Shown piece after piece: positions 17,956 through 42,308 of a stretch of DNA of 64,000 nt. Below the pieces are notes generated by a model that saw only the letters and a program-made list of their open reading frames with translations, did no database searches and was not told where the DNA came from. Where the stretch lies: positions 124,001 to 188,000 of the forward strand of contig JAQGNY010000054.1 in NCBI GenBank assembly GCA_028293825.1, in the 5' to 3' direction. The stretch is from Verrucomicrobiaceae bacterium (GTDB lineage Bacteria; Pseudomonadota; Gammaproteobacteria; Pseudomonadales; CAMLJR01). The first letter of the stretch is position 1. The number at the start of each line of letters is the position of its first letter. Both the position numbers and the translations under genes were made by a program.

Positions 17956-20040
17956 ATGGAAAAAGATATGCGTAGATTATTTCGTGGATTAATCAATTGG
18001 CTGACAAAGAAGGGACATTTCTCACTAGCCTTGCGCCTGTCGTTGCTAATCGGTGTTCTGCTGATAATTCCGTGGATGCTGCTGATCACGGTCACCGAAA
18101 ACTTTTATGAGTTTCGCGACAAAGATATTAGCCGCGGTGCCGCCATTCTCACCCAAGACAAATTCGGCGATCACTTCGCTTCAATAAAATACTTGGATCA
18201 AAACTGGCGCGCGCAAGACAGCCTATGGTTTTACACGGTAACGCAAGGCTCCGATTTGCTGCCGTACGATCTGTTTATGGAAGTCGAACAAATCGGCTCC
18301 GCGAAATTGTTTCGCGACAACGACAATATAAATAGCTACGGCTATTTGCCGCAGCACTCCACCTCACGCAACCCCGACGGCTTACCGGTTGGCTTCGTTA
18401 AAGATGTTTTTCACAAACATGAATATCTGGGCTTTAGCTGCGCGGCGTGTCATAGCGGGCAAGTTAATTACAACGGCGTCGGCATTCGCATCGACGGCGG
18501 CCCGGCCAATGCCGATCTCGATACTTTCGTGCGCGCCCTCGCCGCCGCGCTGAAAGCAACACAGGACACGCCGGATGTGCGCGCCCGCTTCGTCACTCGC
18601 GTGCTGGCGCGCGGCAATTACGACACGGAGCAGCAAGTGCTCAACGCGTTGAAGGCCACTACGCAACAATTAAAAATTTACAACACCATCAATGCTACCG
18701 AGACACCGTATGGTTTCGCGCGGCTCGACGCATTCGGGCGCATTTATAACCGCGTGCTCGAACACGTACTGACGGCGGCGCAACTCAAACGCCAACTTAA
18801 AGGCATCATTGCCGACGCGAGCATCGAGACCGCGTTTAAAAATATCGACGGCCCGCTCAGCGGCATGCAGCGCGACCATATTTACGCGATGCTGTCGGAC
18901 GATCAGCTCAACCAGCTGAAGCGGCGCATCACCAACGAGCCGAACGCGCCGGTGAGCTATCCGTTGCTGTGGGATATTCCGCAACACGACTTCGTGCAAT
19001 GGAACGGTTTGGCGCCGAACGCAGGACTGGGCTCGGTCGGACGCAATGCCGGCGAAGTGATTGGCGTATTCGGCACGCTCGACTGGAAACAAAAACCGGG
19101 CTTTTCGATTTCTTCATTAATTACCGGCCAAGGTTTTAAAACCCACGTCAGTTTCGAGTCGTCGATCAACGTCCACAACTTGCGCCGTATCGAAGAACAC
19201 TTGGGCCGATTGCAATCCCCACAATGGCCCGAAGATGTATTGCCGAAAATCGATACAGCGAAAAAATTACGCGGCGAAAAATTATTCGTCGAATATTGCT
19301 CGGCCTGTCATTCGAAAATCGACCGCGCCGATCCACAGCGCCGCGTGGTCGCGCAGATGTCGAGCCTCGAACGCGTCGGCACCGATCCGGCAATGGCGGA
19401 AAACAGCGTGCGTTACGGCGGCTGGAGTGGAATTTTGCGCAACGAATACGCTGCCCTCGATGTCGGCAATATGCTGCTCGATGAACGCGCGCCGGCCGTC
19501 GGCCTGCTCACCAAAGCGACTTTCGGTGCGGTCGCCACGCCGTATCCTTTCGACAATCCGATCAAGCGCGGCGTGTATTGGGGTTACGATTTGGTTTATG
19601 CGTTTTTCACCAACGACATCAAACCCTCATTAAAAGGTGGCAATTACACCCCCGACAGCACCGTCGAACCGCTCGCGTCATTTCGCTCGTACAAAGCACG
19701 TCCGCTCAATGGCATTTGGGCCACCGCGCCGTTCTTGCACAACGGTTCTGTGCCCAGCCTCTACGATTTACTACTGCCAAAAAAACGCGCCGGTGATCCC
19801 GCCGATGGCGAATATCGTCCCGATACATTTGTTGTCGGCGCGCGTGAATTCGACCCCATCCGCGTGGGATTAAAAAGCAGCGGTTACGACGGCTTCACGT
19901 ACGACACATCGAAACCAGGCAATAGCAATGCCGGACACGAATACACCTCCGGCGGCACCGCGCAACCGAGTGGCGCAATGTTGCCGGCATTAACCAAAGA
20001 ACAACGCCTCGACCTAATTGAGTATTTGAAATCACTGTAA
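17956..20040 (+). CDS. Large membrane-anchored dihaem c-type cytochrome (CCP/MauG superfamily)
   Basis: A 694-residue protein with an N-terminal TM anchor (about 22-47) and two haem-c sites: CAACH at 162-166 and CSACH at 448-452. The stretch LPVGFVKD followed by LGFSCAACHSG and IDGGPANAD is typical of proteins annotated as di-haem cytochrome c peroxidase. Relatives with tested function include the rubber oxygenase RoxA and the Pseudomonas oleate dioxygenases OdsA/OdsB, so oxygenation of a lipid is possible, but substrate cannot be assigned. It lies 25 bp upstream of a P450 gene, probably cotranscribed. The ATG at 17968 is an alternative start. Confidence 0.8.
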   Translation: MEKDMRRLFRGLINWLTKKGHFSLALRLSLLIGVLLIIPWMLLITVTENFYEFRDKDISRGAAILTQDKFGDHFASIKYLDQNWRAQDSLWFYTVTQGSDLLPYDLFMEVEQIGSAKLFRDNDNINSYGYLPQHSTSRNPDGLPVGFVKDVFHKHEYLGFSCAACHSGQVNYNGVGIRIDGGPANADLDTFVRALAAALKATQDTPDVRARFVTRVLARGNYDTEQQVLNALKATTQQLKIYNTINATETPYGFARLDAFGRIYNRVLEHVLTAAQLKRQLKGIIADASIETAFKNIDGPLSGMQRDHIYAMLSDDQLNQLKRRITNEPNAPVSYPLLWDIPQHDFVQWNGLAPNAGLGSVGRNAGEVIGVFGTLDWKQKPGFSISSLITGQGFKTHVSFESSINVHNLRRIEEHLGRLQSPQWPEDVLPKIDTAKKLRGEKLFVEYCSACHSKIDRADPQRRVVAQMSSLERVGTDPAMAENSVRYGGWSGILRNEYAALDVGNMLLDERAPAVGLLTKATFGAVATPYPFDNPIKRGVYWGYDLVYAFFTNDIKPSLKGGNYTPDSTVEPLASFRSYKARPLNGIWATAPFLHNGSVPSLYDLLLPKKRAGDPADGEYRPDTFVVGAREFDPIRVGLKSSGYDGFTYDTSKPGNSNAGHEYTSGGTAQPSGAMLPALTKEQRLDLIEYLKSL

Positions 20041-20065: not shown

Positions 20066-21403
20066 ATGGCTGCTCCCGCAACCGATTACCTCGCGCAGTA
20101 TGACGCCGCTACCGACGGCGAGAAATTTCCGCTGGTGTATCGATGGATGGTCGAGGAGCCGCTGCCTTTTTTTAAAACGTTGCGAGAGCAACGCCCCATT
20201 CTCGTCACGCCCGAATGCACTTTGGTGACGCGCTTCGACGATGTATGCGAAGTACTGTTACTACCGACCATTTTCACCGTCGCGCTGTATAAACCGAAAA
20301 TGGCCGATGGCATCTATTTAATGGCGCACGACGATGATGCGCTGCACACGCGCGAAAAATCGTTGATGCAGGCGCTATTGAATCGCGATGAATTGCCATC
20401 CGTGCGCGCGATGGTCGCGGACATCGGCAAAAAAATTCTCGATCAATCCGGCACTAGCATCGAAGTCGTCAACGATTTTTGCCGCACGGTACCGGCGACG
20501 CTGGTGCAGGATTATTTCGGTCTGAATGGCATCGATAAAAAAGAATTAATCGAGTGGTCGTACTGGAGTCAGTACGACACATTTCACAACCAGCCGTTCG
20601 ATCCAATTTCCGCCGAGCAAAAGCGCAATATCGAAGAGCGCCACGATCAAACCGGAAAGCTGTTAAATAAATTCATCACCGAATTAATCGTACGGCGCTC
20701 ATTGGCACTCGGCTTGGAAAACGCCAACGTTGTGCGCAGACTGTGGCTGAAATTGCGTATCGGTTTGCGCCTGTTAATGGGTAAGCCGCACGATGCGACG
20801 CTGCGCGATGACATCGTAACGCGCATGTTGCGCACGTCGTTTCCCGATGCAATGGATTTCGATATCAAACGTCTTGGCGTAAACGCCGGTGGCTTATTGA
20901 TTGGCGCCATCGAAACCACATCGCAAGCGGTGGCGCAGGCGCTGCAATATTTATTGCAGCATCCCGAATTATTGGAGCAGGCTAAAATCGCTGCCGCGCG
21001 CGAAGATACACACGCCTTCGATGGCATCGTGTGGGAAGCGTTGCGCTTCGTGCCGATCGCCAGCTATTTATTTCGCAAGACCTCTAGCGCTTACATCGCA
21101 GCCAATGGCACCGATTACGCCACTACGATTCCAAGCGGCAGCTATGTTCTCGCCCTTACGCAGTCGGCCATGTTCGATGCGCGTGCATTTGCAAATCCCG
21201 AAGAATTTATTCCGGACCGCAACTGGTATCACTACTTTCATTTCGGTTTCGGCAGTCACGAATGCCTGGGAAAATACATCGGTATGGTGATGATCCCGGA
21301 AATGATACGGCAGGTATTGCTGCGCCCCGGTATTCAAGGGCTGGGCACTATCGATTATAAAGACGGGCCGTTTCCGGAAAATTATCAGCTGACTTGGCAT
21401 TAA
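20066..21403 (+). CDS. Cytochrome P450
   Basis: A 445-residue soluble P450. The haem-thiolate loop FGFGSHECLG places the ligand at about Cys400, the K-helix ExxR is EALR, and the I-helix has GAIETT with the oxygen-activating Thr. It would need a ferredoxin and reductase, neither of which is adjacent. It follows the dihaem cytochrome by 25 bp and has AGGGGA upstream of the ATG. Its 3' end overlaps the 3' end of the opposing acyltransferase gene by 56 bp. Substrate unknown; the lipid-gene setting suggests a fatty acid or terpenoid. Confidence 0.92.
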   Translation: MAAPATDYLAQYDAATDGEKFPLVYRWMVEEPLPFFKTLREQRPILVTPECTLVTRFDDVCEVLLLPTIFTVALYKPKMADGIYLMAHDDDALHTREKSLMQALLNRDELPSVRAMVADIGKKILDQSGTSIEVVNDFCRTVPATLVQDYFGLNGIDKKELIEWSYWSQYDTFHNQPFDPISAEQKRNIEERHDQTGKLLNKFITELIVRRSLALGLENANVVRRLWLKLRIGLRLLMGKPHDATLRDDIVTRMLRTSFPDAMDFDIKRLGVNAGGLLIGAIETTSQAVAQALQYLLQHPELLEQAKIAAAREDTHAFDGIVWEALRFVPIASYLFRKTSSAYIAANGTDYATTIPSGSYVLALTQSAMFDARAFANPEEFIPDRNWYHYFHFGFGSHECLGKYIGMVMIPEMIRQVLLRPGIQGLGTIDYKDGPFPENYQLTWH

Positions 21404-22745
21404 CGCTATCTGTCGCCGCCAATAAATACGCGACGGCCGAATCGGCGATGGCCTGCAGATAACGTCTGTTTATAGAAGGCGACATGCCGACAAAATTCCA
21501 CGACAGCTGACCGGCATAGGTCAGCGCAAAACTGGTCACCGCACCGGTCGCCGATAAAGACGCTGCGTAGCTCAAACCATTCAGCGAAATATGATCGTAA
21601 TCGCCGACAATACCGACCCCGCCCATATTGCTTAAACCGATGCACGCCGGAAATGTACCGCAGAGCCACTGCGTAATTTCTTTTATGCCGAAAATCCTGC
21701 CGCCAACTTCAATAATTTTTGTCAGGTATTTACTCGCAATTGGCATGAACGTAATCGGCGCCGCGCGATCGATGCTGACATGTAGTTCGCGGGCAATCTC
21801 ACTCGCCAGTCGCCAGAAATCCTTATCGGCTGTCATGCGGTGGTTGCTTGCCTGAGTCGCCACATACAAACCCAAATCATTTTGGATGGGAGGCTCCAAC
21901 ACTTTTCTAATGTCGACCGGCGACAACAACTGCAGTGTTATTGGTTTTTTCTGATGCAGACGCGCAGCATCCGCATCGCTCAAAAGATGCTGCTTCACAG
22001 CCAACAATAAGGCCGCACCCAACGCACCTTGCACTGAACATGCGTGAGCCCTACAACTGGCCAAGATGTCTTGCACGCGACCACCACCGATTTTTTTCAA
22101 ACAGACGATGGGCGTGCGTTGCGATAAATCAGCTTCGCGTTGAACATATTTAACAGGAGCGCCGTTCTTTAATAACGACTGCACCATACGCATACCGGTG
22201 GCAGCGTGTCGCCACCAGCCCACAATATTCGGCAGACCAGCATCAATGGGTGCAGGCAACTCCCAACGAGCCGCCTCCGGCCCGCCACCGCTGAGCAGGC
22301 GCATAAAATCGGCACTTAATAAACAACCACTTTCACCATCGCCAATAGAATGGTGCATCACCATTAACAGGGTTGATATGCGCATGCGATGTCGAATGCG
22401 ATTGAATCGAATTAATGGACCAGACGCCGTATCCATTGGCTTACACAATTCATTTTCAATATGAGCCTGTAAACTGGAGATATCGTCATCGCAGCTTTTG
22501 AACGGAATTTTCGTCGACGGATCGATTACAAATTCAAGATCTTTTAACGCAGAAGGGGGAATATGCACGCGCAGTAGCGGATGCTCGCATTGCAGCCAAT
22601 CGATTGCTGCACGGCAGTCATCATCCGAAAAATCGCCCGATATATTAAGTATGAAAACAAAATTAAACGGACTCACTCGATCACAGAGGTACAAAAGTTT
22701 TTCACTTGGATCGAGCAACCTTCTCGCAACAACACCAGCATCCAT
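21348..22745 (-). CDS. PapA/condensation-like acyltransferase
   Basis: A 465-residue member of the CoA-dependent acyltransferase/condensation superfamily (PapA5, WS/DGAT and NRPS C-domain relatives). The catalytic motif HHSIGDG (His131-His132, Asp136-Gly137) is intact and the second half has the SNMG segment typical of PapA-type proteins. Such enzymes esterify hydroxyls with acyl groups from CoA or carrier proteins. The ATG at 22745 has GGAAG upstream. It faces the P450 gene and is divergent from the rhlA operon across an AT-rich spacer, so it may share regulation with the glycolipid genes and acylate their product. That role is inference. Confidence 0.8.
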   Translation of the reverse strand: MDAGVVARRLLDPSEKLLYLCDRVSPFNFVFILNISGDFSDDDCRAAIDWLQCEHPLLRVHIPPSALKDLEFVIDPSTKIPFKSCDDDISSLQAHIENELCKPMDTASGPLIRFNRIRHRMRISTLLMVMHHSIGDGESGCLLSADFMRLLSGGGPEAARWELPAPIDAGLPNIVGWWRHAATGMRMVQSLLKNGAPVKYVQREADLSQRTPIVCLKKIGGGRVQDILASCRAHACSVQGALGAALLLAVKQHLLSDADAARLHQKKPITLQLLSPVDIRKVLEPPIQNDLGLYVATQASNHRMTADKDFWRLASEIARELHVSIDRAAPITFMPIASKYLTKIIEVGGRIFGIKEITQWLCGTFPACIGLSNMGGVGIVGDYDHISLNGLSYAASLSATGAVTSFALTYAGQLSWNFVGMSPSINRRYLQAIADSAVAYLLAATDSVNAKSADNFPETARLYNR

Positions 22746-23193
22746 GATTCTTCCCAAAAAATAATTTCAAAAATTTTTTAAAAATTAAAAATATAAAATC
22801 TATATAAGACAACTACATTTTTAAAAAAAAATTTAACTAAAAATCAATAAATTAAATCCATAAAAACTATTAATAAATAGGCAATTATTTAGGACGCAAA
22901 ACAAATAATAAAAATAAATTTTTAAAAATTTATGCTTTGTTAACCAACATTAAAAACTTTACTTAAAATAAAAAAATTGAGTCGTAATTAAACAGATAAA
23001 TAAATTTAAAAGCCGCGTTTGTTGGCAATATGAGTGCTGCATCCCATTAAAACTTAGTGTCGGAATTTTTTACGTGAACCAGTTCTCCGACGTAGACCGC
23101 TACAATCATGACAATGACGCAACGGACGCATTGTTATTTATTGCTGGTCAACCCAGCAAAGAAACACATTTATCAAGCAGGATGTTGATTATC
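22746..23193. other. Very AT-rich divergent spacer
   Basis: About 450 bp. The part from 22765 to about 23015 is made almost wholly of A and T, with many A- and T-tracts, in contrast to flanking DNA that is GC-rich. It separates the acyltransferase gene from the rhlA operon and probably holds promoters for both sides. Such composition is typical of DNA bound by H-NS/MvaT-type silencers or of recently acquired segments. Confidence 0.6.
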
Positions 23194-23340
23194 ATGAAAA
23201 CCGTAGTACACCACCTCGGCCGCCTAGCAGAACATCCAAACATTTACTCCATCGATATTTCTTCGCGGATAGCGATGGCGGCTAACGCCCGCGTTAAATT
23301 TCACGCTGCGAACCCTAAGACGGCACCAGCTTCCGGCTAA
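23194..23340 (+). CDS. Possible 48-residue small protein
   Basis: Reads MKTVVHHLGRLAEHPNIYS and continues to a TAA at 23340, 147 bp before rhlA, in the same direction. AGGA lies 11 nt upstream of the ATG, a rather long spacing. The mature part is Ala/Asn/Pro-rich and has no cysteine. It resembles no family I know. A longer frame from a GTG at 23074 has no Shine-Dalgarno. It could be a leader peptide, a small regulator of the operon, or not a gene at all. Confidence 0.3.
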   Translation: MKTVVHHLGRLAEHPNIYSIDISSRIAMAANARVKFHAANPKTAPASG

Positions 23341-23487
23341 GCCCAGAAAAATAACTCTACGTTATTACGATTAGCGCAATTAAAAGATGCGGGGGCGAGC
23401 TGTCGCCCACCGAACGAAGCGCAACAATTTACTGCCTGCCAAGACACCGCTGATATTCGACCTTAAATGTACTGGGAGGCTATTCCT

Positions 23488-24348
23488 ATGGGCTTAAAAA
23501 AGCTGAACGTGCCGTTGCCAAACGGGCTCACCGTTTATGTTGAGCATCAAATCACTAACCCTGAGCTTGAAACGATTATTTTAATTAACGGCGCACTTTC
23601 AACGACGACGTCGTTTAATCACACCGTGAAATTCCTGAAGGGTCGCTTTAACACGCTATGTTTCGATTTGCCGTATTCGGGCCAATCGAAACCGCTTAAC
23701 TCGCAGAATGTCATCATCACCAAAGATGATGAAGTTGAAATACTTTGTTACCTGATCAATTTTTTTAACCCTGACTATTTGATTTCAATTTCTTGGGGCG
23801 GTGTGGCTGCGTTGCTGGCACTGGCGCAGAAACGCAGCAGCGTAAAACGCGCGATCATTGGCTCATTTTCACCTTTCCTCAACCCCGCGATGCTTGATTA
23901 CATTTCGGCGGCGCGTGATTTTATTATCGCTGGCGACAACAGCAAAGCTGCGCGACTGCTCAACGATACTGTCGGTAAATTTCTGCCGCGCATGGTGCGC
24001 CTGTACAACTATCGCTACCTGTCGCGACTACCCGAACAAGAGATGCAGCAGGTCTCATTTCATATCGAACAAATTTTGGCGCTGCAACCGGGCCGCTACT
24101 TACAAAAGCTGCAGCACATCGAGACAGAAGTGATGTTTATTAATGGCGAATTGGACGAATACACCTCAGCTGCCGACGTTAAATTTGTCGCGCCTTATTT
24201 GAAACACGCCAGCTTCGCAACCGTGGCTGGCGCGGGTCATTTTCTCGATCTCGAAGGTCGCGCTGCGCAAATAGCGACACGGAAATTAATTTTCGATTAT
24301 TTCGATCCAGCCGCCAATGAAGGCTTTGAAACCGTACAGGCGATGTAA
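23488..24348 (+). CDS. rhlA: RhlA-like 3-(3-hydroxyalkanoyloxy)alkanoate synthase
   Basis: A 286-residue alpha/beta hydrolase-fold enzyme closely resembling P. aeruginosa RhlA, which joins two beta-hydroxyacyl units to form HAA, the lipid part of rhamnolipids. Shared stretches include ITKDDEVEIL, the nucleophile region SISWGG, LLND/ETVGK and AGAGHFLDLE. The proposed triad falls at Ser102, Asp223 and His251, the same numbers as described for RhlA. The ATG at 23488 is chosen because GGGAGG lies 8 nt before it; an in-frame ATG at 23467 precedes that site. It is the first gene of a six-gene run ending in an RhlB-like glycosyltransferase. Confidence 0.92.
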   Translation: MGLKKLNVPLPNGLTVYVEHQITNPELETIILINGALSTTTSFNHTVKFLKGRFNTLCFDLPYSGQSKPLNSQNVIITKDDEVEILCYLINFFNPDYLISISWGGVAALLALAQKRSSVKRAIIGSFSPFLNPAMLDYISAARDFIIAGDNSKAARLLNDTVGKFLPRMVRLYNYRYLSRLPEQEMQQVSFHIEQILALQPGRYLQKLQHIETEVMFINGELDEYTSAADVKFVAPYLKHASFATVAGAGHFLDLEGRAAQIATRKLIFDYFDPAANEGFETVQAM

Positions 24349-24383
24349 TCGCGTTAATTTTATTTTTCACGAGAAATCACACC

Positions 24384-24953
24384 ATGAATATTCTGCAAAG
24401 TGGCGCCATGCTGGCGCCCTGGCTGCTATGGCTTTTGTACTGGCTGGCTACCGCCAACGACACCAAAAAAACGCTTATACGCGAAGGATCGCTATCGCGC
24501 TCACTGCAAAACTTTATTGTCGGCGCCGGTGTGTTGTTAATTTTATTGCCCGATTTTTCGCGGCAGGCTTTTATCGTCGATACACAAGTATTCGGTGCGC
24601 AGCAACAAGCCGGACTTGCCGTCACCATCGCCGGCCTGCTCGTGTCGGTATGGGCGCGCGTACATCTGGGTCGCAACTGGAGCGCGGCAGTAACACTGAA
24701 AGAAAATCACGAGCTGATTCGCAGCGGACCCTACGCTTGGGTTCGGCACCCCATTTACACCGGCTGCCTCCTTGCACTGTTTGGCAATGCATTAATTAAC
24801 GGCGAGCCGCGCGGTTACATCGGCGTTGCGATTGTTTTTTTCGCGCTCGTTTATAAAGTTCGACTGGAGGAGCGCGGCCTGTCGCAATACTTCGGTGAAT
24901 CGCATGTCAGTTATTGCCGAGACGTCAGCGCGCTGATCCCCGGCGTTTACTGA
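24384..24953 (+). CDS. ICMT/PEMT-like membrane methyltransferase
   Basis: A 189-residue polytopic membrane protein (four to five hydrophobic segments) of the isoprenylcysteine carboxyl methyltransferase family. The SAM-binding part is clear: LIRSGPYAWVRHPIYTG, then EERGLSQYFG and a C-terminal LIPGVY. Characterised relatives methylate a carboxylate or phospholipid head group. Its position between rhlA and the exporter genes is not known to me from Pseudomonas or Burkholderia rhl loci and suggests it may methyl-esterify the free carboxyl of the lipid or glycolipid. It follows rhlA by 35 bp and precedes the MFS gene by 10 bp. Confidence 0.82.
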   Translation: MNILQSGAMLAPWLLWLLYWLATANDTKKTLIREGSLSRSLQNFIVGAGVLLILLPDFSRQAFIVDTQVFGAQQQAGLAVTIAGLLVSVWARVHLGRNWSAAVTLKENHELIRSGPYAWVRHPIYTGCLLALFGNALINGEPRGYIGVAIVFFALVYKVRLEERGLSQYFGESHVSYCRDVSALIPGVY

Positions 24954-24963
24954 GGCAATCGGC

Positions 24964-26517
24964 ATGTCATCCCGGCGCACATTTCGCTTCATCACTCAAC
25001 TGCCGTTAGATGGAACACCGCTGGTGATTCTGACACTGGCGTTGGCCACCGCGACCTTCATCGAAGTGCTCGACACCACCGTCGCCAATGTGGCGGTGCC
25101 GGCAATTTCGGGCGCGATGGGCGTATCGACCGGTCAGGGCACATGGGTAATCAGTTCCTACACGATGGCCGCCGCGATCGCGGTGCCACTGACCGGCTGG
25201 CTAGCCGGACGGATCGGCGAAGCGCGCCTATTTCTCACCTCGGTATTGCTGTTCACGCTGGCGTCGACCGCATGCGCATTGTCGACCAGCATGACTTCGT
25301 TGGTTATCTGCCGCGCGTTGCAAGGCTTTTTGTCCGGCCCGATGGTGCCGCTCTCGCAGACATTAATGTTGCGCGCCTTTCCGGCAGAGCGGCGCGCCCA
25401 AGCGATCGCGCTGTGGGGAGTGACCGTGTTGCTGGCGCCGATTTTCGGGCCGGTGATCGGCGGCTGGCTGGTCGACGACCACTCCTGGCATTGGATTTTT
25501 CTGATCAACCTGCCGATTGGCCTGATCGCATTCGCCACCTGTTTCTCGCTGCTGCCGCCCGATGCCGGACCGCGCACGACCACACCGATCGACGGCATCG
25601 GCATCGGTCTTTTGGTGATTGGCGTGGGTTCGCTGCAAGCGGCGCTCGACCTTGGCCGCGAGCACGGCTGGTTTGATTCGATGTTGATCACGGGCCTGAT
25701 CGTGACTGCGGCAATAACACTCGGAGCGCTGTTGATCTGGGAGGCCGGCGAGCGCTATCCAGTGGTCGACCTGAGCGTATTCCGCGACCGTAATTACTCG
25801 TTTTCGTTGGCGATTATTTCGGTCGGCATGATGGGCTTTGCGCTGGTCGGCGTGATCTTCCCGCTGTGGCTGCAGACCGTGATGGGCTACAGCGCGTTCA
25901 ACGCCGGTCTGGCGATGGCACCGTTCGGCGTGCTGGCGCTTGGCGCGGCGGCGCTAGTTAGCAAGTTCGGCGAGAACGTCGATCCGCGCGCAATAGCCTC
26001 ACTCGGATTTATCGTGTTCTGTGGTTCGTTGCTGTGGGATGCGCACTTTTCACTCAGCATGACATTCTGGCAGGTCGCCACCCCCGGCTTCATTCTCGGC
26101 ATTGGACTGCCATGTTTCTTCATCCCGATGGTCGCGGTAATGCTGTCGCATATCCCGGACGACAAACTCGCCTCAGCCACCAGTTTGTCCAACTTTTTAC
26201 GCACGCTCGCGTTCGCCTTCGGCACTGCCATTAGCGTCACGCTGTGGGACAGTCGCGGCAATTATCACTACGGCACGCTGGCCCAGGACGTCACCCCGAT
26301 ATCGGCTGGCACCAAGGTCTACCTCGGAAGCCTGAAAGGCATCGGCATCGCCGATGGTTTCAGGCTGCACACCATCGAACAAGCCACCCAACAACAGTCG
26401 TACATGCTCGCCACTAACGACATGTTTTTCATGACCAGCATGCTCTGTCTGGCGCTGGCCGGCTGTGTGTGGCTTACGCGTCCGAAGCGCGGCATCAGCT
26501 TACAAATCGGTCATTGA
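24964..26517 (+). CDS. EmrB/QacA-type MFS exporter (DHA2 family)
   Basis: A 517-residue 14-TM transporter of the DHA2 drug:proton antiporter family. Motif D1 is seen as LDTTVANVAVP in TM1, motif A as GWLAGRIGEARLF, and motif C as LAPIFGPVIGGWL. It would pair with the downstream outer-membrane factor and HlyD-type adaptor to form a tripartite EmrAB-TolC-like pump through both membranes. In Burkholderia the rhl operons carry the same trio, where export of rhamnolipid is the accepted role; the same role is inferred here. Confidence 0.92.
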   Translation: MSSRRTFRFITQLPLDGTPLVILTLALATATFIEVLDTTVANVAVPAISGAMGVSTGQGTWVISSYTMAAAIAVPLTGWLAGRIGEARLFLTSVLLFTLASTACALSTSMTSLVICRALQGFLSGPMVPLSQTLMLRAFPAERRAQAIALWGVTVLLAPIFGPVIGGWLVDDHSWHWIFLINLPIGLIAFATCFSLLPPDAGPRTTTPIDGIGIGLLVIGVGSLQAALDLGREHGWFDSMLITGLIVTAAITLGALLIWEAGERYPVVDLSVFRDRNYSFSLAIISVGMMGFALVGVIFPLWLQTVMGYSAFNAGLAMAPFGVLALGAAALVSKFGENVDPRAIASLGFIVFCGSLLWDAHFSLSMTFWQVATPGFILGIGLPCFFIPMVAVMLSHIPDDKLASATSLSNFLRTLAFAFGTAISVTLWDSRGNYHYGTLAQDVTPISAGTKVYLGSLKGIGIADGFRLHTIEQATQQQSYMLATNDMFFMTSMLCLALAGCVWLTRPKRGISLQIGH

Positions 26518-26565
26518 TCGCGGCATCGCGACCGGACCAAACGCAACCCATAAACAGGAATCGCA

Positions 26566-28101
26566 GTGCAGTCGATGCAAACATTGCCGTATAGAAAATT
26601 AATTAATGCGCTTCTTGTTTACTGTTTACCGACGGTAATGATCGGCTGCGCCAATGATTCCGGCATTAGAGCCAATGTGACGGCCATCGAGCCCACGTCC
26701 AGCGATTTGTCCCAGCTGCATTTGGATGGAAACGGCAACTGGCCAGACTCGAACTGGATCGCGCAGTTTCACGATCCGCAATTGGAACGACTGGTCAGCG
26801 AGGCGCTGGCGCAGAATCCCGATATGCAAATCGCGCAGGCACGAGTGTTGGCGGCGCAGGCCAAGGCGGAAGAATACGGATCGGCGCGCGGCTTTTCCGG
26901 TCAGGCCAATGCGCAGATATCGCGCGCGCGCCTGCCGGTCGCGATCGAACCGTTCAACGCCAATGTGGCCGGCAATAATCTGCCGGTCGATGTCAGCATC
27001 AATCCGTGGGCGACGCCGACCGGACTGCTCGCAGGCGTCAATTACGAGTTCGATCTGTGGGGCAAAAAAGAGGCGCTACAACAGGCGCTTAAATCCGAGC
27101 AAATGGCGACTGCACTGGATAGCGAACAAGCGCGACTGACGCTGACTACGACGCTGGTGAAACTGTATTTTCAATACGATTACTACGTGGCGATGAGCGA
27201 TTTGCTAAAGGAGCAGATTCGCACGTACGGCAGCATCGAAGAATTGGCGGACGCCCGCGTCAATCAGGGGCTCGATGGCGATTACGACCGCAGCGACACG
27301 CAACTGAAACGCAGCGCACTGCTCACGCAACAATTAACGAACGAACAGAACGTCACGCTGACCCAACTGCAACTGGGTTTATTGGCCGGCGCCGGTCCTG
27401 ATCGCGGCTTCAAATTACAACGGCCGGCATTAGCAGCGACGTCCGACGCGGTGTTGCCAGCGCAACTGCCGGCCAATTTACTCGGCCGGCGCCCCGACAT
27501 CATCGCCGCACGATTGCGCATCGAAGCGTTGCAGGCCAAAGCCGAATCCACTCGCGCATCGTTCTACCCCGATATCAACCTGAGCGCGCTGACTGGATTA
27601 ATGACAACCGACGTCGCTTCGCTGTTGTCTAGCGACGCAATTTTTGCCTCCTTTGGCCCGGCCATCTCGTTGCCAATTTTCGATCGCGGCCGGATTCGTG
27701 CGCGCCTGAAAGCCGATTACGCCAACGCCGACATGGCTATTAGCCAATACAACAAAACAGTCAATCAAGCCTTCGGCGATATCGTGCAGCAACTGACCTC
27801 CATCAGCTCGACCGACTCGATCATCGAACAGCAAACGCGGGCCGTGGCCGCTGCAGCGCGCATTGTCGAGATCGCCAAAACCCGGCATGAGCGCGGCATC
27901 GGCCCGAACAAAGCCATCATGCTGGCCAAACTGTCAATGGCCGCCGAAACACAGAAGCTCCTGACCTTGCGGGCGCAGCGCCGAACACTGCAAGTCGAGC
28001 TGGTCCGCGCGCTCGGCGGCGGTTTCAGCGCCGGCCAATACGCCAACGTCAGCAAACCGTCTTCATCAGCTCAATCCAATGTGGCGAGACCTACACCATG
28101 A
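26566..28101 (+). CDS. NodT-type outer-membrane efflux lipoprotein
   Basis: A 511-residue TolC-superfamily outer-membrane factor. The N-terminal signal peptide ends in a lipobox (VMIGC), followed by two repeats of the OEP domain with long amphipathic helices, including LGRRPDIIAARLRIEALQAK-like and SFYPDINLSAL stretches typical of NodT/OprM proteins. The GTG at 26566 is chosen because AGGA is correctly spaced before it; the ATG at 26575 is too far. The stop overlaps the start of the adaptor gene by 4 bp. It is the outer-membrane channel of the predicted glycolipid exporter. Confidence 0.92.
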   Translation: MQSMQTLPYRKLINALLVYCLPTVMIGCANDSGIRANVTAIEPTSSDLSQLHLDGNGNWPDSNWIAQFHDPQLERLVSEALAQNPDMQIAQARVLAAQAKAEEYGSARGFSGQANAQISRARLPVAIEPFNANVAGNNLPVDVSINPWATPTGLLAGVNYEFDLWGKKEALQQALKSEQMATALDSEQARLTLTTTLVKLYFQYDYYVAMSDLLKEQIRTYGSIEELADARVNQGLDGDYDRSDTQLKRSALLTQQLTNEQNVTLTQLQLGLLAGAGPDRGFKLQRPALAATSDAVLPAQLPANLLGRRPDIIAARLRIEALQAKAESTRASFYPDINLSALTGLMTTDVASLLSSDAIFASFGPAISLPIFDRGRIRARLKADYANADMAISQYNKTVNQAFGDIVQQLTSISSTDSIIEQQTRAVAAAARIVEIAKTRHERGIGPNKAIMLAKLSMAAETQKLLTLRAQRRTLQVELVRALGGGFSAGQYANVSKPSSSAQSNVARPTP

Positions 28102-29276
28102 CGATCGACAACTCGCCAGAGTTTGCGCTGCAAGCCGCTCAAGTCATTAAACGCGAACGGCGCAAATGGCAGATGGGTGTGTTTTTGGGCGTGGTGCTGT
28201 TGATCGCCATCGGCGCTGGCGGTTATTTACTGTTTATCGGGCAGTACAGCGAGAGCACCGATGACGCTTATGTCGCCGGCAACATCATGCAAATCAGCGC
28301 ACAAATCCCCGGCACCGTTACCGAGGTATTGGTCGATGACACACAGCAGGTTCACGCCGGCCAAACGTTGGTACGACTCGACAGTAAAGAGACGCGCGCG
28401 GCACTGGCGCAGGCCGAAGCGCTGCTTTCGCAAACCATCAAACAGGCACGCAATCTCAGCGACGTCAGCCGCGCGTATAGCGAGCTGATCGCAGCGCGCG
28501 AGGCCGAACTGAATTTTGCGGAAAGCAGCTTGCGCGCGCGCAGTAACGCCAAGGTAGAAGTCGTATCGCGCGAAGAGCTTTCGCAGGCGCGGCAGCACAA
28601 CGCGGTCGCCCAAGCCAATCTGGCGGCGGCGCACGCGCAGGCCGATGCCGCCAAAGCACTGGCCAGCAAAGCGGATCCGACCACCAACCCAATGGTGATT
28701 CAGGCAGCGGAGCAGGTGCGGCTGGCTTACACCAACTATGCCCGCGCGCAGATCATCTCCCCCATCGACGGCACCGTTGGCCAGCGCTCGGTGCAAATCG
28801 GCCAACAGGTAGCGCCGGGCTTGCCGCTGATGTCGGTTATCGCGATGCAGCAGTTGTGGGCGGAAGCCAATTTGAAAGAAGAGCAAATTCGCCACGTTCG
28901 CATCGGCCAGCCGGTCACCGTGAGTACGGAGGTGTATGGCAGCGCGGTCAAGTATCGCGGCCACATCCAAGGACTTTCGGCCGGCACCGGCAGCGCGTTT
29001 TCGATGTTGCCGGCGCAGAATGCCACCGGCAACTGGATCAAAGTCGTGCAGCGCATTCCCGTGGTGATTGCGCTCGACGCGACGGATTTGAAAGCGCATC
29101 CGCTGCGACTCGGTCTGTCTCTGCACATCACTATCGATACGCACGAACGCAGCGGCAGCATGATCAACCTCGCCAACACGCAATCGCTGCTGCCGTTGCG
29201 CTCCCAACAACAGATCGATACTGACGCCAGCGCGCGGGTCACAGCGATCATCAACGCGGCGCTTTCCGATGAATGA
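28098..29276 (+). CDS. EmrA/HlyD-type periplasmic adaptor
   Basis: A 392-residue membrane-fusion protein: short cytoplasmic N-terminus, one TM segment (about 25-47), STDDAYVAGNIMQISAQI (the typical start of the EmrA barrel), lipoyl half-motifs flanking a long alpha-helical hairpin rich in Ala, Glu and Gln (about 90-200), and a beta-barrel domain. It bridges the MFS pump and outer-membrane factor. It overlaps both neighbours (4 bp upstream, 8 bp downstream), showing tight translational coupling within the operon. Confidence 0.93.
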   Translation: MTIDNSPEFALQAAQVIKRERRKWQMGVFLGVVLLIAIGAGGYLLFIGQYSESTDDAYVAGNIMQISAQIPGTVTEVLVDDTQQVHAGQTLVRLDSKETRAALAQAEALLSQTIKQARNLSDVSRAYSELIAAREAELNFAESSLRARSNAKVEVVSREELSQARQHNAVAQANLAAAHAQADAAKALASKADPTTNPMVIQAAEQVRLAYTNYARAQIISPIDGTVGQRSVQIGQQVAPGLPLMSVIAMQQLWAEANLKEEQIRHVRIGQPVTVSTEVYGSAVKYRGHIQGLSAGTGSAFSMLPAQNATGNWIKVVQRIPVVIALDATDLKAHPLRLGLSLHITIDTHERSGSMINLANTQSLLPLRSQQQIDTDASARVTAIINAALSDE

Positions 29277-30633
29277 TTTTACCAATCCCAGCAACTGCCC
29301 CGGCGCTGCCAACAAGAAGAGCATGCGCTTTCTGCTGCATGCGGTCGGCAGTCACGGCGACATCATTCCGATTATCGAGCTGGCTAAAGCGCTGCGCGAG
29401 CGCGGACACGATCCGCTGTTTCTGGTGCACGTCATTTTCGAACAACTGGTGCGTGACGCCGGTATTGCCGTCATAACCTATGGCGCACTCAAAGATCAGG
29501 AGATTCTTCGCGACGCCGATATCGTGCACGAATGGCGCGCGCACCGCGTGCTGGCCCAGGTCATCGCCGACACCACGCCCGTCGCTTATCGCGCGTTGAC
29601 CGAAGCCGTTTCCGCAGGCCCACGCCCCACTGCGGTGATCGGCAACACCGTCGCCTTCGCCTGTCATCTGCTGCGCGAAACGCACGCCATTCCATGCGTG
29701 ACCATTCATTACGCGCCATCAGTGCTGCGCTCAAACGAGGCGCCCGCGCGCCTATCGCGCTACAAAATTTCGCTGCCATCCGCAGTATTTCCGATTGCAT
29801 GGCGCGCACTCGATCGTTGGTTCGTCGATCCGCTGTACGCCGCTCCGCTAAATCGGCAGCGTGCAATAATCGGGCTGGCGCCGATCAAGCGAGTGATTCA
29901 CGACTGGATTCATCAGGCCGATTTGGTTCTAGGCATGTTTCCCGAACTGTTTACCGAAACGCCATCGGATTGGCCGGCAGGAATTCAACTGACTGGGTTT
30001 CCGCTCCAACAGTTGCAGCCATTGGAGCAGCTAACCGCTGCGGCGGAGATTTTTTTAACGGCAGGCGAGGCGCCGATCGGATTTACCGCCGGCACACACA
30101 CGGCAACGGCGCGCGAGTTCTTTGACGTATCGTTGGCAGCGTGTCGGCAACTGGGCCGACGCGGTATCTTTCTTACCCGCTTTGCCGATCAAATACCGCC
30201 TCTATTACCGGCGGAAATTGCGCACTTCGCCTATGTACCGTTTCCGTCGCTGCTGCCGCGCTTAGCGGCATTCGTTCATCACGGTGGCATCGGCAGCACC
30301 AGTCAGGCTTTACTGGCCGGCGTGCCGCAATTGATTCGCCCCACGTCTTTCGATCAATTCGATAATAGCAGTCGCACCTGTGCACTCGGTGTCGCGAAAG
30401 AGGTGTTGGCCCATAAATACGTGCCGAATACCGTGGCGACGACACTCAATGCGCTAACGCAGAGCGCAACAATTCGCAGCAATTGCATCAACCTTTCGCA
30501 GCGGCTAATGCAAAGCGATGGCGTGTATAACGCATGCGAAGCAATTCTAAACGCGCCCTTTTGCCACGATGATTCGCAACACCAATTTAATTTATTCGAG
30601 TTGCCGAAATCGCAACTGGTCTATCGCGATTAA
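29269..30633 (+). CDS. rhlB: RhlB-like glycosyltransferase (GT1)
   Basis: A 454-residue GT-B fold glycosyltransferase of the UGT/RhlB group. The N-terminal acceptor domain opens RFLLHAVGSHGDIIP, like RhlB, and the C-terminal donor domain has VHHGGIGSTSQALLAGVPQL with the DQFDN motif. In P. aeruginosa RhlB transfers rhamnose from dTDP-L-rhamnose to HAA to give mono-rhamnolipid. Its placement at the end of the rhlA operon supports that role, though another sugar donor cannot be excluded. No rhlC homologue is in the window, so a mono-glycosylated product is expected unless rhlC lies elsewhere. Confidence 0.85.
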   Translation: MNDFTNPSNCPGAANKKSMRFLLHAVGSHGDIIPIIELAKALRERGHDPLFLVHVIFEQLVRDAGIAVITYGALKDQEILRDADIVHEWRAHRVLAQVIADTTPVAYRALTEAVSAGPRPTAVIGNTVAFACHLLRETHAIPCVTIHYAPSVLRSNEAPARLSRYKISLPSAVFPIAWRALDRWFVDPLYAAPLNRQRAIIGLAPIKRVIHDWIHQADLVLGMFPELFTETPSDWPAGIQLTGFPLQQLQPLEQLTAAAEIFLTAGEAPIGFTAGTHTATAREFFDVSLAACRQLGRRGIFLTRFADQIPPLLPAEIAHFAYVPFPSLLPRLAAFVHHGGIGSTSQALLAGVPQLIRPTSFDQFDNSSRTCALGVAKEVLAHKYVPNTVATTLNALTQSATIRSNCINLSQRLMQSDGVYNACEAILNAPFCHDDSQHQFNLFELPKSQLVYRD

Positions 30634-32208: not shown

Positions 32209-33564
32209 ATGGCTATCCCAGCTGCATTGGATTCGCTTCTGCGCGAGCACAATATTCAATACGACCTGCAGGATCACTTGCCGAATACCGCGTTGCCGCA
32301 AGATGCAGTGCGCGCAGTGCTGCTGGCGGACGGCGAACAACGTTTCCACGTGTTATTTCCCGCCCACAGCTTGCTCGATTTAAATGCTGTGCGCCAGCAG
32401 ACCGGTTTGGCGCAATTGCGTGCGATGGCAGTCGCCGAAGTGAATGCACTGTGTGAAAGCCGCAACTTCCAACAGGTGCCGGCGCTGCCCTGTGCGCTCG
32501 GCGTGGCGACGTTGGTCGATCGTAAATTGTTGGCGAATAACGGTATCGCGCTGGTATCCGGCAACGATGGTTTAGTGCGCCTGCGCACCGAGCAATTTCA
32601 ACAGAGCCTGGATCAGGCCGTGCTCGGCAATTTCTCCATCGATATTACCGAGCTGCAGCACGGCAAGCTCGATGCGGTCGACGATGTCGAAGCCATTACC
32701 CATGCGGTCGCCAACTTCACCCAACTGCGATTGAAACAACGCCTGCAGGAAACACTGGAAATTCCACCGCTGCCCGACACCGCGCAACGCATTCTGAAAC
32801 TGCGCGTCGATCCGAATGCCGATGTGCGCAATTTGACGACACTGGTCGAAACCGATCCGCCGCTGGCCGCGCAGGTCGTCAGCTGGGCCAGCTCGCCGTA
32901 TTACGCCTACACAGGCAAAATTAAATCGGTGCACGACGCCATCGTGCGCGTGCTTGGTTTCGATGTGGTGCTGAACTTGGCGCTCGGCATGTCGCTCGGC
33001 AAAAGCCTGAGCCTGCCGAAGGATTCGCCGGCGGGATTTACCACGTATTGGCAACAAGCTGTTTATTGCGCGACGGCGGTCGAATCGCTGGTCGGCTGCA
33101 TTGCCGTCAAACATCGCCCGATCATCGGCATCGCCTATTTATCCGGCCTGCTGCACAACTTCGGGCATCTGGTCATGGCGGAAATCTTCCCACCCTATTT
33201 CTCCAGTTATTGCCGTTTGCAGGAAGTGAATCCGCAACTCAATTACACGACCATCGAACGCCATTTACTCGGCATCACCCGCGATCAAATGGCTGGCTGG
33301 CTTATGAGGATGTGGTCGATGCCCGATGAAGTTTGCACCGGCGTGCGCTTTCAAAATGAAGCGGAGTACGCCGGCGAAAACAGCGCCTACGCCAATTTGA
33401 TTTTTATCGCGATGCGCTTATTGCGTCGTCACGGCATCGGTAACGCGCCGCTGGAATCAATTCCACAAGAGATGTTCGAACGCTTGCAACTCGATCCCGA
33501 CAAAGCAGTGAATGCAATTCAGAACGTAGTCGATGCAAGTCAGGAAATTATCGGGCAGATGTAA
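32209..33564 (+). CDS. HDOD protein with YbaK-like N-terminal domain
   Basis: A 451-residue cytoplasmic protein. Residues 1 to about 140 look like a YbaK/ProX aminoacyl-tRNA-deacylase-type fold (LDSLLREHNIQYDL start, later VATLVDRKLL). Residues about 170-370 form an HDOD domain (IPPLPDTAQRILKLR, then a LHNFGHLVMAE segment where HD-GYP proteins have their metal ligands). HDOD proteins act as regulators in signalling and are usually catalytically silent. AGGAGGG lies just before the ATG. A bidirectional terminator follows the gene. Confidence 0.85.
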   Translation: MAIPAALDSLLREHNIQYDLQDHLPNTALPQDAVRAVLLADGEQRFHVLFPAHSLLDLNAVRQQTGLAQLRAMAVAEVNALCESRNFQQVPALPCALGVATLVDRKLLANNGIALVSGNDGLVRLRTEQFQQSLDQAVLGNFSIDITELQHGKLDAVDDVEAITHAVANFTQLRLKQRLQETLEIPPLPDTAQRILKLRVDPNADVRNLTTLVETDPPLAAQVVSWASSPYYAYTGKIKSVHDAIVRVLGFDVVLNLALGMSLGKSLSLPKDSPAGFTTYWQQAVYCATAVESLVGCIAVKHRPIIGIAYLSGLLHNFGHLVMAEIFPPYFSSYCRLQEVNPQLNYTTIERHLLGITRDQMAGWLMRMWSMPDEVCTGVRFQNEAEYAGENSAYANLIFIAMRLLRRHGIGNAPLESIPQEMFERLQLDPDKAVNAIQNVVDASQEIIGQM

Positions 33565-38942: not shown

Positions 38943-39500
38943 TTACAGAAAAATCCCCAGATTCGGCATTCCTAAAACGGCTTGATCGACCAGCACATCG
39001 CGCCGCGCCAGCTTGAAGCTATGGCCGTCGCGGCGAATCCGGTCGCGCCGCTCGGCGCACAGCAACTGATACGTTTCCTGATCGAAGCGATTGCGCGCCA
39101 CCAGCAGATAACTCACCACCTCGAACTCATCGGCGGTTTCGGTTTCGCCCACCGCGACGTTGGTGACGAAGCGGCGCACGCGCGAGGGCGGGTCTTCCGA
39201 CCACGCACTTTTGCCGTCGACCAGTCGGCTGACGCGGCCGAGAATCGATTCGTAGTCGTCTTCCATATGACAGACGGTGTCGGAGATTTCGCGCCCAAAC
39301 GTGGCGCGGTCGCGGGTCTGCCGCACCGGCACGCGGTAGCTCAGGTCGGTGGCGAGCAGACCGGTCCAGTCGCGCAGGCGCAGCGTGTCGAGCAAGTACG
39401 CCTCGTGATTCAAAAACTGCTGCACCTCGAAAAAGACAGTCGGCGATGCTGGCTTCAGAGCAGCCGGCTGGTGGCGGATATCAACGGCAGTGGCGGTCAT
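38943..39500 (-). CDS. Ring-hydroxylating dioxygenase beta subunit
   Basis: A 185-residue small subunit (NTF2-like/SnoaL fold) of a Rieske non-haem iron dioxygenase. Typical stretches: VQQFLNHEAYLLD, LSYRVPVRQTR, SRLVDGKSAWSEDPPSRVRR, and the C-terminal VLGMPNLGIFL. Start at 39500 (MTATAVD) is chosen because GAGGTG lies before it. It is the last gene of a leftward operon with the alpha subunit 36 bp upstream. Confidence 0.92.
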   Translation of the reverse strand: MTATAVDIRHQPAALKPASPTVFFEVQQFLNHEAYLLDTLRLRDWTGLLATDLSYRVPVRQTRDRATFGREISDTVCHMEDDYESILGRVSRLVDGKSAWSEDPPSRVRRFVTNVAVGETETADEFEVVSYLLVARNRFDQETYQLLCAERRDRIRRDGHSFKLARRDVLVDQAVLGMPNLGIFL

Positions 39501-39536
39501 GGTGTTCACCTCAATCAATGCGAAAAATAGTCGGGA

Positions 39537-40922
39537 TCAGTTGGTCATCAGCGCGAAATACTGTTCCCACCACAGCCATTGCGCGTCGTCCTTGGAAAAG
39601 CCGTTGTAGACCTTGGCTTTGTCGGGCCAGTCGTCGGGCCGGTTTTCGCCGAGAATGGCCTGATACTTCAGCGTCTCCTGCCGGCCCATAAAGCCGCGCG
39701 CCGATTCGGTCATATGCGGCCAAGTGTCGGAGTCGTCCTGCTCGATCATGCCGGAGGTGCCACCGGCCTGTGACGCGGCGGCGCGCATCAGCTTTTTCAC
39801 GTCGTCCGGCGTGTCTTTCTCGGCGAAGAACCAGGTCAGCCACTGAAACTTCTCGACACCTTTCGGCACAATGGTGTGTAGCAGCAGACCCGAGCCCATG
39901 GTGCCGTCGCGCAGCGGCGCATAGATAAACAGGATGTTGACGTTGGGAAACAAATTGCCGACCTGCGGCGGGGCCACCGACATGACGTGCAGCTGCTCCG
40001 GCGTCATGTTGCGTTTCATTTCCGGCAGCATGCTCGGCATGATCCCGGGAGGAGGCAGCTTCTCGAAACGCTCGTCGACGCTGAGGTTTTCCATCGACTC
40101 GCCGAGCATCAGCGTGAAGGTGGTGTTGACCGGAATGCAGCGCAGCGTGTTGCCGTTCTCGCCGACATTGATGCCGTACATGCCGGGCGCGAACTCGGCC
40201 ACTTCGTCGCCGCCGGAGCCGCCCATGATGCCGCGCTCCAGCAACGAGCGGTGCAGCGTCAGCGTGTGAAAGCCGTCGCAGGCGGATTGCTCGCCGGCGG
40301 TTTTCCAGTTGGCGTCGATGGTCAGGCGCTGCGGCGGCCCGAGTACTTCCAGCCCGTTATCGGTGCGCTTGAACAGCATGTCGTAATAAAACTTCATGTC
40401 GCCGAGCGATTCTTCCAGCGACGGCGCATCGACATCCCAGTTGGCGAAAATCAGCCCGCCGTACAACGCTACTCGCGCCTTCTTCAGGCCGAGCTGCTCC
40501 TTCGATTTGAGGTCGCCGTGCATTCTTTCGCGCTCGACCGGCGCACCGATAAAGCTGCCGTCGGCGCGAAATGCCCAGCCGTGATAAATGCAGCGATGCA
40601 CCTGCGCGTTGCCGGATTCGGCGGTGCAGACGTGCATGCCGCGGTGCGGGCAGACGTTCAGCGACACGTAAATCTGGCCGTCGCTGGCGCGCGTGACGAT
40701 CACCGCGTCCTCGCCCATATGGCGCACGACGTAGTCGCCGCTGTTGGGGATTTCGGTGTCATGGCCGAGCAGCAGCCAGGTTTTGCCAAACACTTTTTCC
40801 ATTTCGATCTGGTACAGCTCGGCGTCGTTCATCACGCTCAGCGACACTTCGCGATTGGGCCGATCAACCAAATCTTCGATGCGGGTGCCGTCGGACAGGA
40901 CGCGTTTGGTTCTGGTCAACAT
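39537..40922 (-). CDS. Rieske ring-hydroxylating dioxygenase alpha subunit
   Basis: A 461-residue catalytic subunit inserting both atoms of O2 into an aromatic ring. The Rieske [2Fe-2S] ligands are in CPHRGMH and CIYHGW; the mononuclear iron site has CDGFHTLTLH (two His) with the carboxylate in the C-terminal EQDDSDTW region. The bridging Asp of CDGFH is present. The ATG at 40922 has AGAGAGGA upstream. No ferredoxin or reductase gene adjoins it, so electrons must come from components encoded elsewhere. The substrate cannot be told; the neighbours suggest a CoA-linked or polycyclic/aromatic pathway. Confidence 0.93.
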   Translation of the reverse strand: MLTRTKRVLSDGTRIEDLVDRPNREVSLSVMNDAELYQIEMEKVFGKTWLLLGHDTEIPNSGDYVVRHMGEDAVIVTRASDGQIYVSLNVCPHRGMHVCTAESGNAQVHRCIYHGWAFRADGSFIGAPVERERMHGDLKSKEQLGLKKARVALYGGLIFANWDVDAPSLEESLGDMKFYYDMLFKRTDNGLEVLGPPQRLTIDANWKTAGEQSACDGFHTLTLHRSLLERGIMGGSGGDEVAEFAPGMYGINVGENGNTLRCIPVNTTFTLMLGESMENLSVDERFEKLPPPGIMPSMLPEMKRNMTPEQLHVMSVAPPQVGNLFPNVNILFIYAPLRDGTMGSGLLLHTIVPKGVEKFQWLTWFFAEKDTPDDVKKLMRAAASQAGGTSGMIEQDDSDTWPHMTESARGFMGRQETLKYQAILGENRPDDWPDKAKVYNGFSKDDAQWLWWEQYFALMTN

Positions 40923-40947
40923 GGTGAATTCCTCTCTCTTAAACTTA

Positions 40948-42174
40948 TTAGATGAAGTCCGGATGGGCGATATTCGGCTCGACGCCGAGCAGGCCCTTGC
41001 CGTAAATCTCGTAGCCGACGTACGGCAGATTGGCGGTGTGGCGCAGCGCGAACACGACATCGCGGTAGAAACGCTCAAGCGGATTGGCCTCGGCGAACGC
41101 GCTCGACCCGGCCAGAAACATCAGCTGATCGACCGCCTGCGCGATCAGGTCGATGGTCATCGAGCCCTCGCCCTTGCTCTGCATGCGCTGCAGCGGGCTC
41201 ATCGGTGTGCGCGTCAGACCGACCTCATCGACGGCGCGACAGGTTTTCAGCATCAGCGCTTCGGCGGCCTGCAATTTAGCGGCGGCCTGACCGAACTGGG
41301 CCTGCGCCACCACGGCTTCGGACTGCACTTTGTAATGCGTGTAAACGATCGGGCGTTTCTTTGACGCCTCGGCCACGCGCTCCAGAATCGCCAGCGCCGC
41401 GCCAGCAACCGCACCGTGCGCGGTGGCGCGCAGAAACGGCATGAACGGCCAGAAATCGGACGGTTCGCCGACGTGCTTTTTGCCGGCTTCGTGGTGACCG
41501 ATACCGAGCTTGGCAACGTGGTAGAACTGCGCGGCGGGAATGAATACATCATTGGCGACGATGGTTTCCGAGCCGCTGGCTTTCATGCCCAACATGAACC
41601 AGGTGTCGTCGATGCTGTACTGGCTCGAACGCAGATAGGCGAAGCCGCCCGGCTCGACGCTGCCGTCCGGTTTGCGAATGTTCACCCCGAGCTGCGCCCA
41701 GCTGGCATGACGGCTGCCCGACGCATACGGCCAGCGCCCGTTGATGATGTAGCCGCCGTCGACCTCATCGGCGGTGCCGGGCGGATTGGCAATGCCGCAG
41801 ATGACCGGATGCTCGTCGCTGCTGCCGAAGATCGCTTCCTGTAACGCATCGGGGCCGAGACTCGCCACCCACGTCGTGCCGTGCAACACGGTATACACCC
41901 ACCCCGCCGATGGATTGCCCTTGCCCAGCTCGGCGCCGACCTGCGCCATCGCCGTCGCCGACGTGCCGAGTCCGCCCCAGCGGCGCGGCGCGGCCATTTC
42001 CCAAAAGCCGGCATCGGTCATCGCGTTGAAAACTTCATCCGGCAAGCGCCGGTCACGGTCGGCTTGAGCCGCCGTTTTCAGCAACAGCGGCTGCAACTCG
42101 CGGGCGCGGCCGATCAGCTCGCGATCGGCGGCGGTGTTATAGCCTGCGGTGGAAAAATCAGTTTTTATGTTCAT
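40948..42174 (-). CDS. Acyl-CoA-dehydrogenase-fold flavoprotein, probably a monooxygenase
   Basis: A 408-residue protein with the acyl-CoA dehydrogenase fold. N-terminal FWEMAAPRRWGGLG, the flavin-binding middle part with INGRWPYASGSRHASW, and the C-terminal helical domain are seen. The sequence resembles group D flavin monooxygenases (for example HsaA/HpaB-like proteins), which hydroxylate phenols with a separate flavin reductase, more than true dehydrogenases. It is the first gene of the leftward operon with the dioxygenase. The start is uncertain: 42174 (MNIK) or 42186. No reductase gene is adjacent. Confidence 0.82.
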   Translation of the reverse strand: MNIKTDFSTAGYNTAADRELIGRARELQPLLLKTAAQADRDRRLPDEVFNAMTDAGFWEMAAPRRWGGLGTSATAMAQVGAELGKGNPSAGWVYTVLHGTTWVASLGPDALQEAIFGSSDEHPVICGIANPPGTADEVDGGYIINGRWPYASGSRHASWAQLGVNIRKPDGSVEPGGFAYLRSSQYSIDDTWFMLGMKASGSETIVANDVFIPAAQFYHVAKLGIGHHEAGKKHVGEPSDFWPFMPFLRATAHGAVAGAALAILERVAEASKKRPIVYTHYKVQSEAVVAQAQFGQAAAKLQAAEALMLKTCRAVDEVGLTRTPMSPLQRMQSKGEGSMTIDLIAQAVDQLMFLAGSSAFAEANPLERFYRDVVFALRHTANLPYVGYEIYGKGLLGVEPNIAHPDFI

Positions 42175-42294
42175 CGCATATCCCATTCATCAATCGAGCA
42201 ACCTGTGCTTCGCTGAAACGGATAAGACACTTTCTGCCAATTCCGTCTCTCACAACTCACCAGTGCAGATTAATGGCGCCGCCCCTTTTACGTA

Positions 42295-42308
42295 TTGATC
42301 TGGATCAA
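42295..42308. promoter_or_regulatory. Perfect FNR/Anr-type palindrome
   Basis: TTGATCTGGATCAA matches the FNR/Anr consensus TTGAT-N4-ATCAA without mismatch. It lies midway between the divergent flavoprotein gene (start 42174) and the MaoC gene (start 42408), 121 and 100 bp away, and could control either or both by oxygen. Confidence 0.8.

Follow-up and report, generated by a model that had tools for sequence, protein, structure and literature searches.

Gene content of the locus

The window, meaning the whole stretch of 64,000 nucleotides that was analysed, contains six plus-strand open reading frames arranged head to tail between positions 23488 and 30633, preceded by an AT-rich region and a divergent gene.

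21348..22757, minus strand: PapA/condensation-type acyltransferase gene, divergent from rhlA (PF16911, 43 bits; HHSIGDG motif)
22758..23487, no strand: AT-rich stretch upstream of rhlA, expected to contain the promoter of the operon (GC 38% at 22500-23499)
23488..24348, plus strand: rhlA, predicted HAA synthase of the Burkholderia type (8ik2 match, catalytic triad, tree)
24384..24953, plus strand: rhlM, ICMT-family membrane methyltransferase with predicted rhamnolipid-type carboxyl methylation (identity, H122/E162)
24964..26517, plus strand: emrB-type MFS exporter gene of the rhl kind (matches to rhl-operon EmrB and E. coli EmrB)
26566..28101, plus strand: nodT-type outer-membrane channel gene with a GTG start (TIGR01845, identity to rhl-operon NodT)
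28098..29276, plus strand: emrA-type periplasmic adaptor gene (matches to rhl-operon EmrA and 8zar)
29269..30633, plus strand: GT1-family (GT-B) glycosyltransferase gene, not an RhlB ortholog (trees, signature residues)

The genes are separated by 35 bp (rhlA/rhlM), 10 bp (rhlM/emrB) and 48 bp (emrB/nodT), and overlap by 4 bp (nodT/emrA) and 8 bp (emrA/glycosyltransferase); the six are presumably co-transcribed. The coordinates and the two overlaps given by the sequence-only reading agree with the list of open reading frames, and its view of the locus as an RhlA-based make-and-export operon akin to the Burkholderia rhl operons is upheld. A longer rhlA frame starting at 23467 is also in that list; the start at 23488 is better supported, being in agreement with M1 of RhlA relatives and having GGGAGG, a good ribosome-binding site, upstream.

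RhlA, RhlM and the exporter

The product of rhlA is an alpha/beta hydrolase whose residues 5-271 align without gaps to residues 5-271 of 8ik2, the solved structure of P. aeruginosa RhlA (E 1.6e-71, 244 bits). This gapless alignment bears out the claim that S102, D223 and H251 stand at the P. aeruginosa numbers, and all three are invariant in the alignment with relatives. The protein clusters in the RhlA tree with that of Burkholderiaceae (support 100/98; up to 59% identity), apart from the RhlA of Pseudomonas and Halomonas, which belong to its own order. The phylogenetic check set beforehand thus came out in favour of RhlA, placing the protein in a Burkholderiaceae group linked to glycolipid operons. 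PhaG is the usual confusion for RhlA (PMC7054101); that identity is ruled out here by the grouping with Burkholderia RhlA and the glycolipid-operon setting.

The methyltransferase encoded directly 3' of rhlA is 52-61% identical to proteins whose genes stand next to rhlA, on its 3' side, in Burkholderia, Paraburkholderia and Caballeronia, and at most 37% identical to the other gammaproteobacterial ICMT proteins found. It groups with rhl-linked RhlM (support 86/90, not starred), and H122 and E162, the SAM contacts of the characterised RhlM (PMC11069360), carry the same numbers. On this evidence it is RhlM, the known rhamnolipid carboxyl-methyltransferase, its activity being predicted. Deletion of rhlM in P. 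kirstenboschensis was found to abolish rhamnolipid methyl esters (PMC11069360), and in 2020 B. cenocepacia and B. ambifaria had already been noted to have a methyltransferase gene lying between rhlA and rhlB (PMC7054101). The gene had been taken for an insertion; as the known rhlM, standing right behind rhlA as it does in most of the Burkholderia/Paraburkholderia operons found (49 of the loci listed below; PMC11069360; PMC7054101), it is no distinguishing mark of this locus.

The exporter genes form a clear EmrB/NodT/EmrA set, as had been proposed. EmrB is up to 64% identical to rhl-operon EmrB (635 bits), its best solved match being E. coli EmrB (8zal, 418 bits), and EmrA is up to 59% identical to rhl-operon EmrA, with E. 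coli EmrA as its best solved match (8zar, 267 bits). NodT matches TIGR01845 with 313 bits and is up to 49% identical to rhl-operon NodT. In quick trees of EmrB and EmrA the window proteins have a long branch and adjoin the rhl exporters of Burkholderia. A generic drug pump is ruled out, as the rhl-operon EmrB and EmrA match better than E. coli EmrAB and the rhl order is kept.

The terminal glycosyltransferase

The last gene of the operon had been read as encoding an RhlB-like glycosyltransferase. The superfamily (GT1) and the fold stand: the structure model (pLDDT 74) has a GT-B fold, and the donor motif HHGGIG...DQFDN is intact, its DQFDN part being common to RhlB. Membership of the RhlB clade and the RhlB-specific residues do not. 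The protein is 31-36% identical to every RhlB compared, Burkholderia and Nevskia RhlB being about 53% identical to each other and the other window proteins 48-64% identical to their best operon counterparts; it lies no nearer to RhlB than to rhl-unlinked GT1 proteins (L101, L102 and Methylorubrum L119). It holds 82 of the 149 near-invariant RhlB residues, a count within the range of non-RhlB GT1 proteins (78-105), and 10 of the 38 signature residues specific to RhlB. The P. aeruginosa RhlB row in the comparison is less certain than the others; the identities and residue counts obtained with Burkholderia and Nevskia are independent of it.

Two trees place the glycosyltransferase outside the RhlB group, and a position inside is rejected by the AU test (p=0.012); its exact position is less certain because the branch is long. 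The supposed RhlB thus fails the phylogenetic check, and the arrangement in which rhlA and rhlB bracket the transporter falls with it, there being no rhlB ortholog. Taken together, these comparisons indicate that the terminal glycosyltransferase is not RhlB, which it resembles at the level of the GT1 superfamily only. Its closest solved structures comprise TDP-deoxysugar and UDP-glucose enzymes, including UGT51 and GtfB, and do not decide the sugar donor, since both donor types are among them. The gene is the sole one of its kind in the genome, with no second rhlB copy, and the relatives found in the same order (L101-L105) have unrelated genomic surroundings. On an Erwinia plasmid (L144:4968-6996), rhlA is directly followed by a divergent GT1-like gene whose product is 27-29% identical to RhlB.

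Comparison with known rhl operons

The comparison covered 84 listed rhl loci, comprising the best 80 from genomes, gathered with an alignment query (a scan with RhlA alone gave no matches), and four from plasmids; further arrangements may exist. rhlM occurs in 49 of the 84, in every case (49/49) with rhlB directly after it. Among the matches listed, 45 of these 49 show the order rhlA-rhlM-rhlB-emrB-rhlC-nodT-emrA; in three the contig ends within the operon, and the remaining one reads rhlA-rhlM-rhlB-rhlC. The window keeps the Burkholderia order, except that rhlB and rhlC are missing and a single glycosyltransferase gene follows emrA at the 3' end. The shared genes rhlA-rhlM-emrB-nodT-emrA therefore keep the usual order from which the operon had been said to depart. 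Where the missing genes would be expected, the window has no more than 10 bp between rhlM and emrB (rhlB) and 48 bp between emrB and nodT (rhlC). The absence of rhlC, already remarked from the sequence, holds for the operon and also genome-wide: a Burkholderia RhlC query found none in the whole genome (96% complete), and queries of this family do hit the loci of Burkholderia.

The rhlM operons of Burkholderia, Paraburkholderia and Caballeronia, for example that of P. kirstenboschensis F3 (PMC11069360), share the same five genes in the same order and orientation (best identities 48-64%). They possess rhlB and rhlC, whereas the window has neither and carries a non-RhlB GT1 gene after emrA, in a host outside the Burkholderiaceae. 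The clusters of B. thailandensis and B. glumae (PMC2804600; locus L004) also contain rhlA and the exporter trio, but have rhlB and rhlC and lack rhlM. Loci in Nevskia MAGs (L060, L063, L064) resemble the window in RhlA, EmrB/NodT/EmrA and the presence of GT1 genes, and differ in having a true RhlB, no rhlM and a divergent emrA-nodT pair. In one of them (L060:5235-10262), rhlA-rhlB-emrB is followed by a second RhlB-like GT1 gene (43% to RhlB) in the rhlC slot, a further natural case in which the second sugar step has been exchanged.

More distant parallels are found in Pantoea ananatis rhlAB (PMC4863597), where RhlA is likewise paired with a divergent glycosyltransferase, but no methyltransferase or exporter trio is reported and no glycosyltransferase like that of the window is shown. 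P. aeruginosa rhlAB plus rhlC has the RhlA chemistry in common with the window and differs in its two loci, the adjacent rhlRI regulator, the lack of rhlM and a true RhlB. The gene combination of the window is absent from the 84 listed loci and from the literature examined; the parts of the operon are known, and their combination is new within this range.

Host genome and probable horizontal transfer

The host genome (4.34 Mb, 96% complete) belongs to a family with one other genome in the set. RhlA-like proteins are encoded in 17 of 392 genomes of the host order, which is that of the Pseudomonadaceae and Halomonadaceae; the other carriers all fall in two families, f21 with RhlA that cluster with Pseudomonas and f37 with RhlA that cluster with Halomonas. 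None was found in the same-genus genome (89% complete). The operon was probably acquired by horizontal transfer, since its RhlA groups with Burkholderiaceae and away from the RhlA of the host's order, and transfer is the simplest reading of this tree and of the sparse distribution. Host and donor would both be proteobacteria, and lineages between them may be missing from the sampling; the RhlA branch is long (0.53), and no direct donor is therefore named. The only downstream gene with a clear counterpart in the same-genus genome is an HDOD gene (32209-33564), and because this single counterpart lies in another context, an empty site is not demonstrable there.

Proposed product and alternatives

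The reading favoured here, which we regard as probable, is that a Burkholderia-type operon for rhamnolipid methyl esters was acquired horizontally, lost rhlB and rhlC, and had their role taken over by one unrelated GT1 enzyme. RhlA would join two 3-hydroxyacyl units into HAA, the GT1 enzyme would transfer one sugar onto the free hydroxyl of HAA, and RhlM in the inner membrane would methylate the free carboxyl with SAM; EmrB, EmrA and NodT would then export the product. The expected compound is a mono-glycosylated HAA methyl ester bearing L-rhamnose or another sugar. We infer the substrate of the glycosyltransferase, the order of steps, the export and the sugar from the genes. Deletion mutants of P. 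kirstenboschensis led to a route RhlA-RhlB-RhlM (PMC11069360), and methylation is expected to follow glycosylation because methylated HAA was absent from the rhlB mutant of that strain (PMC11069360). With neither RhlC nor a second glycosyltransferase, the product is expected to carry one sugar. The sugar is not predictable and may be new, as both known rhamnose-adding genes are gone and an unrelated glycosyltransferase is present. The distinct glycolipid suggested at the outset is a reasonable expectation.

It is possible, with somewhat less than an even chance, that the sugar which the GT1 enzyme attaches to HAA is not L-rhamnose and that the operon makes and exports an undescribed class of glycosyl-HAA methyl esters. 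The added sugar could tentatively be glucose, for example, which would give a glucolipid methyl ester analogous to the ananatosides of Pantoea. In Pantoea, RhlA and a diverged homolog of RhlB together make a lipid with hexose (PMC4863597), and the presence of the UDP-glucose enzymes UGT51 and GtfB among the closest solved structures points the same way; these structural neighbours, however, also include TDP-deoxysugar enzymes, and the window glycosyltransferase is only 25% identical to the one adjoining Erwinia rhlA.

A serious but likewise tentative alternative makes the enzyme a functional rhamnosyltransferase replacing RhlB, with an ordinary mono-rhamnolipid methyl ester as product. Rhamnose is a possible sugar because the genome encodes rmlA, rmlB, rmlC and rmlD, each above curated cut-offs and together a complete dTDP-L-rhamnose pathway; the DQFDN motif shared with RhlB and the lack of any other sugar pathway gene adjoining the operon are also consistent with it. 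The RhlB-specific residues, however, are mostly missing, and the rml genes do not point to the rhl operon, since they are common and lie away from it, with rmlD, rmlA and rmlC in a surface-polysaccharide-like cluster.

The glycosyltransferase is unlikely to be a separate neighbour inactive on HAA, in an operon that makes and exports HAA or its methyl ester. Its place at the end of the operon is one that an unrelated gene could take, and RhlA-like genes lack a partner glycosyltransferase in 27 of the 84 listed loci, but the gene overlaps emrA, and RhlM appears to need a glycosylated substrate, as judged from the P. kirstenboschensis rhlB mutant.

The description of rhamnolipid methyl esters and of RhlM dates from 2024 and mostly concerns Burkholderia sensu lato; the RhlA-RhlM-exporter part is now found, without RhlB or RhlC, in a lineage far from these, within the order of the Pseudomonadaceae and Halomonadaceae. 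The operon offers a direct test of sugar dependence for both RhlM and the EmrAB-NodT exporter, as well as a new glycosyltransferase for designer biosurfactants. If a non-rhamnose sugar is indeed added, rhl operons would be modular, the exchange of one gene changing the sugar while the acyl, methyl and export parts are kept.

Regulation and neighbouring genes

A promoter scan of the region upstream of rhlA gave matches equal to those in shuffles, and a lux-box scan for the operon gave no match above chance. Two matches to LuxI-like autoinducer synthases occur elsewhere in the genome (C11:25018-25506 and C37:39746-39907), so the operon may be under quorum control.

Mycobacterial PapA enzymes acylate glycolipids. 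The PapA-type gene of the window lies tail to tail with a cytochrome P450 gene (20066-21403), which it overlaps by 56 bp; the cyanobacterial and Streptomyces relatives share about 25% identity with it. It is very doubtful that this acyltransferase, alone or together with the P450, modifies the glycolipid further by acylation or oxidation: the divergent position, the intact HHxxxDG-type motif and the mycobacterial precedent speak for it, but the gene is missing from all Burkholderia rhl loci listed and lies on the opposite strand, 730 bp from rhlA, and its plasmid relatives are weak (about 25-30%), the one with inspected surroundings not being rhl-linked. The P450 gene starts 25 bp after a plus-strand gene (17956-20040) whose large product is a c-type dihaem protein assigned to the CytoC_perox family and contains a haem segment like that of the rubber oxygenase RoxA. 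The P450, the dihaem protein and PapA were rejected as operon members, having no support in relatives. Further downstream, positions 38943-44213 contain genes for ring-hydroxylating dioxygenase subunits, an acyl-CoA dehydrogenase, a MaoC hydratase and SDR proteins, which likely form an aromatic degradation cluster.
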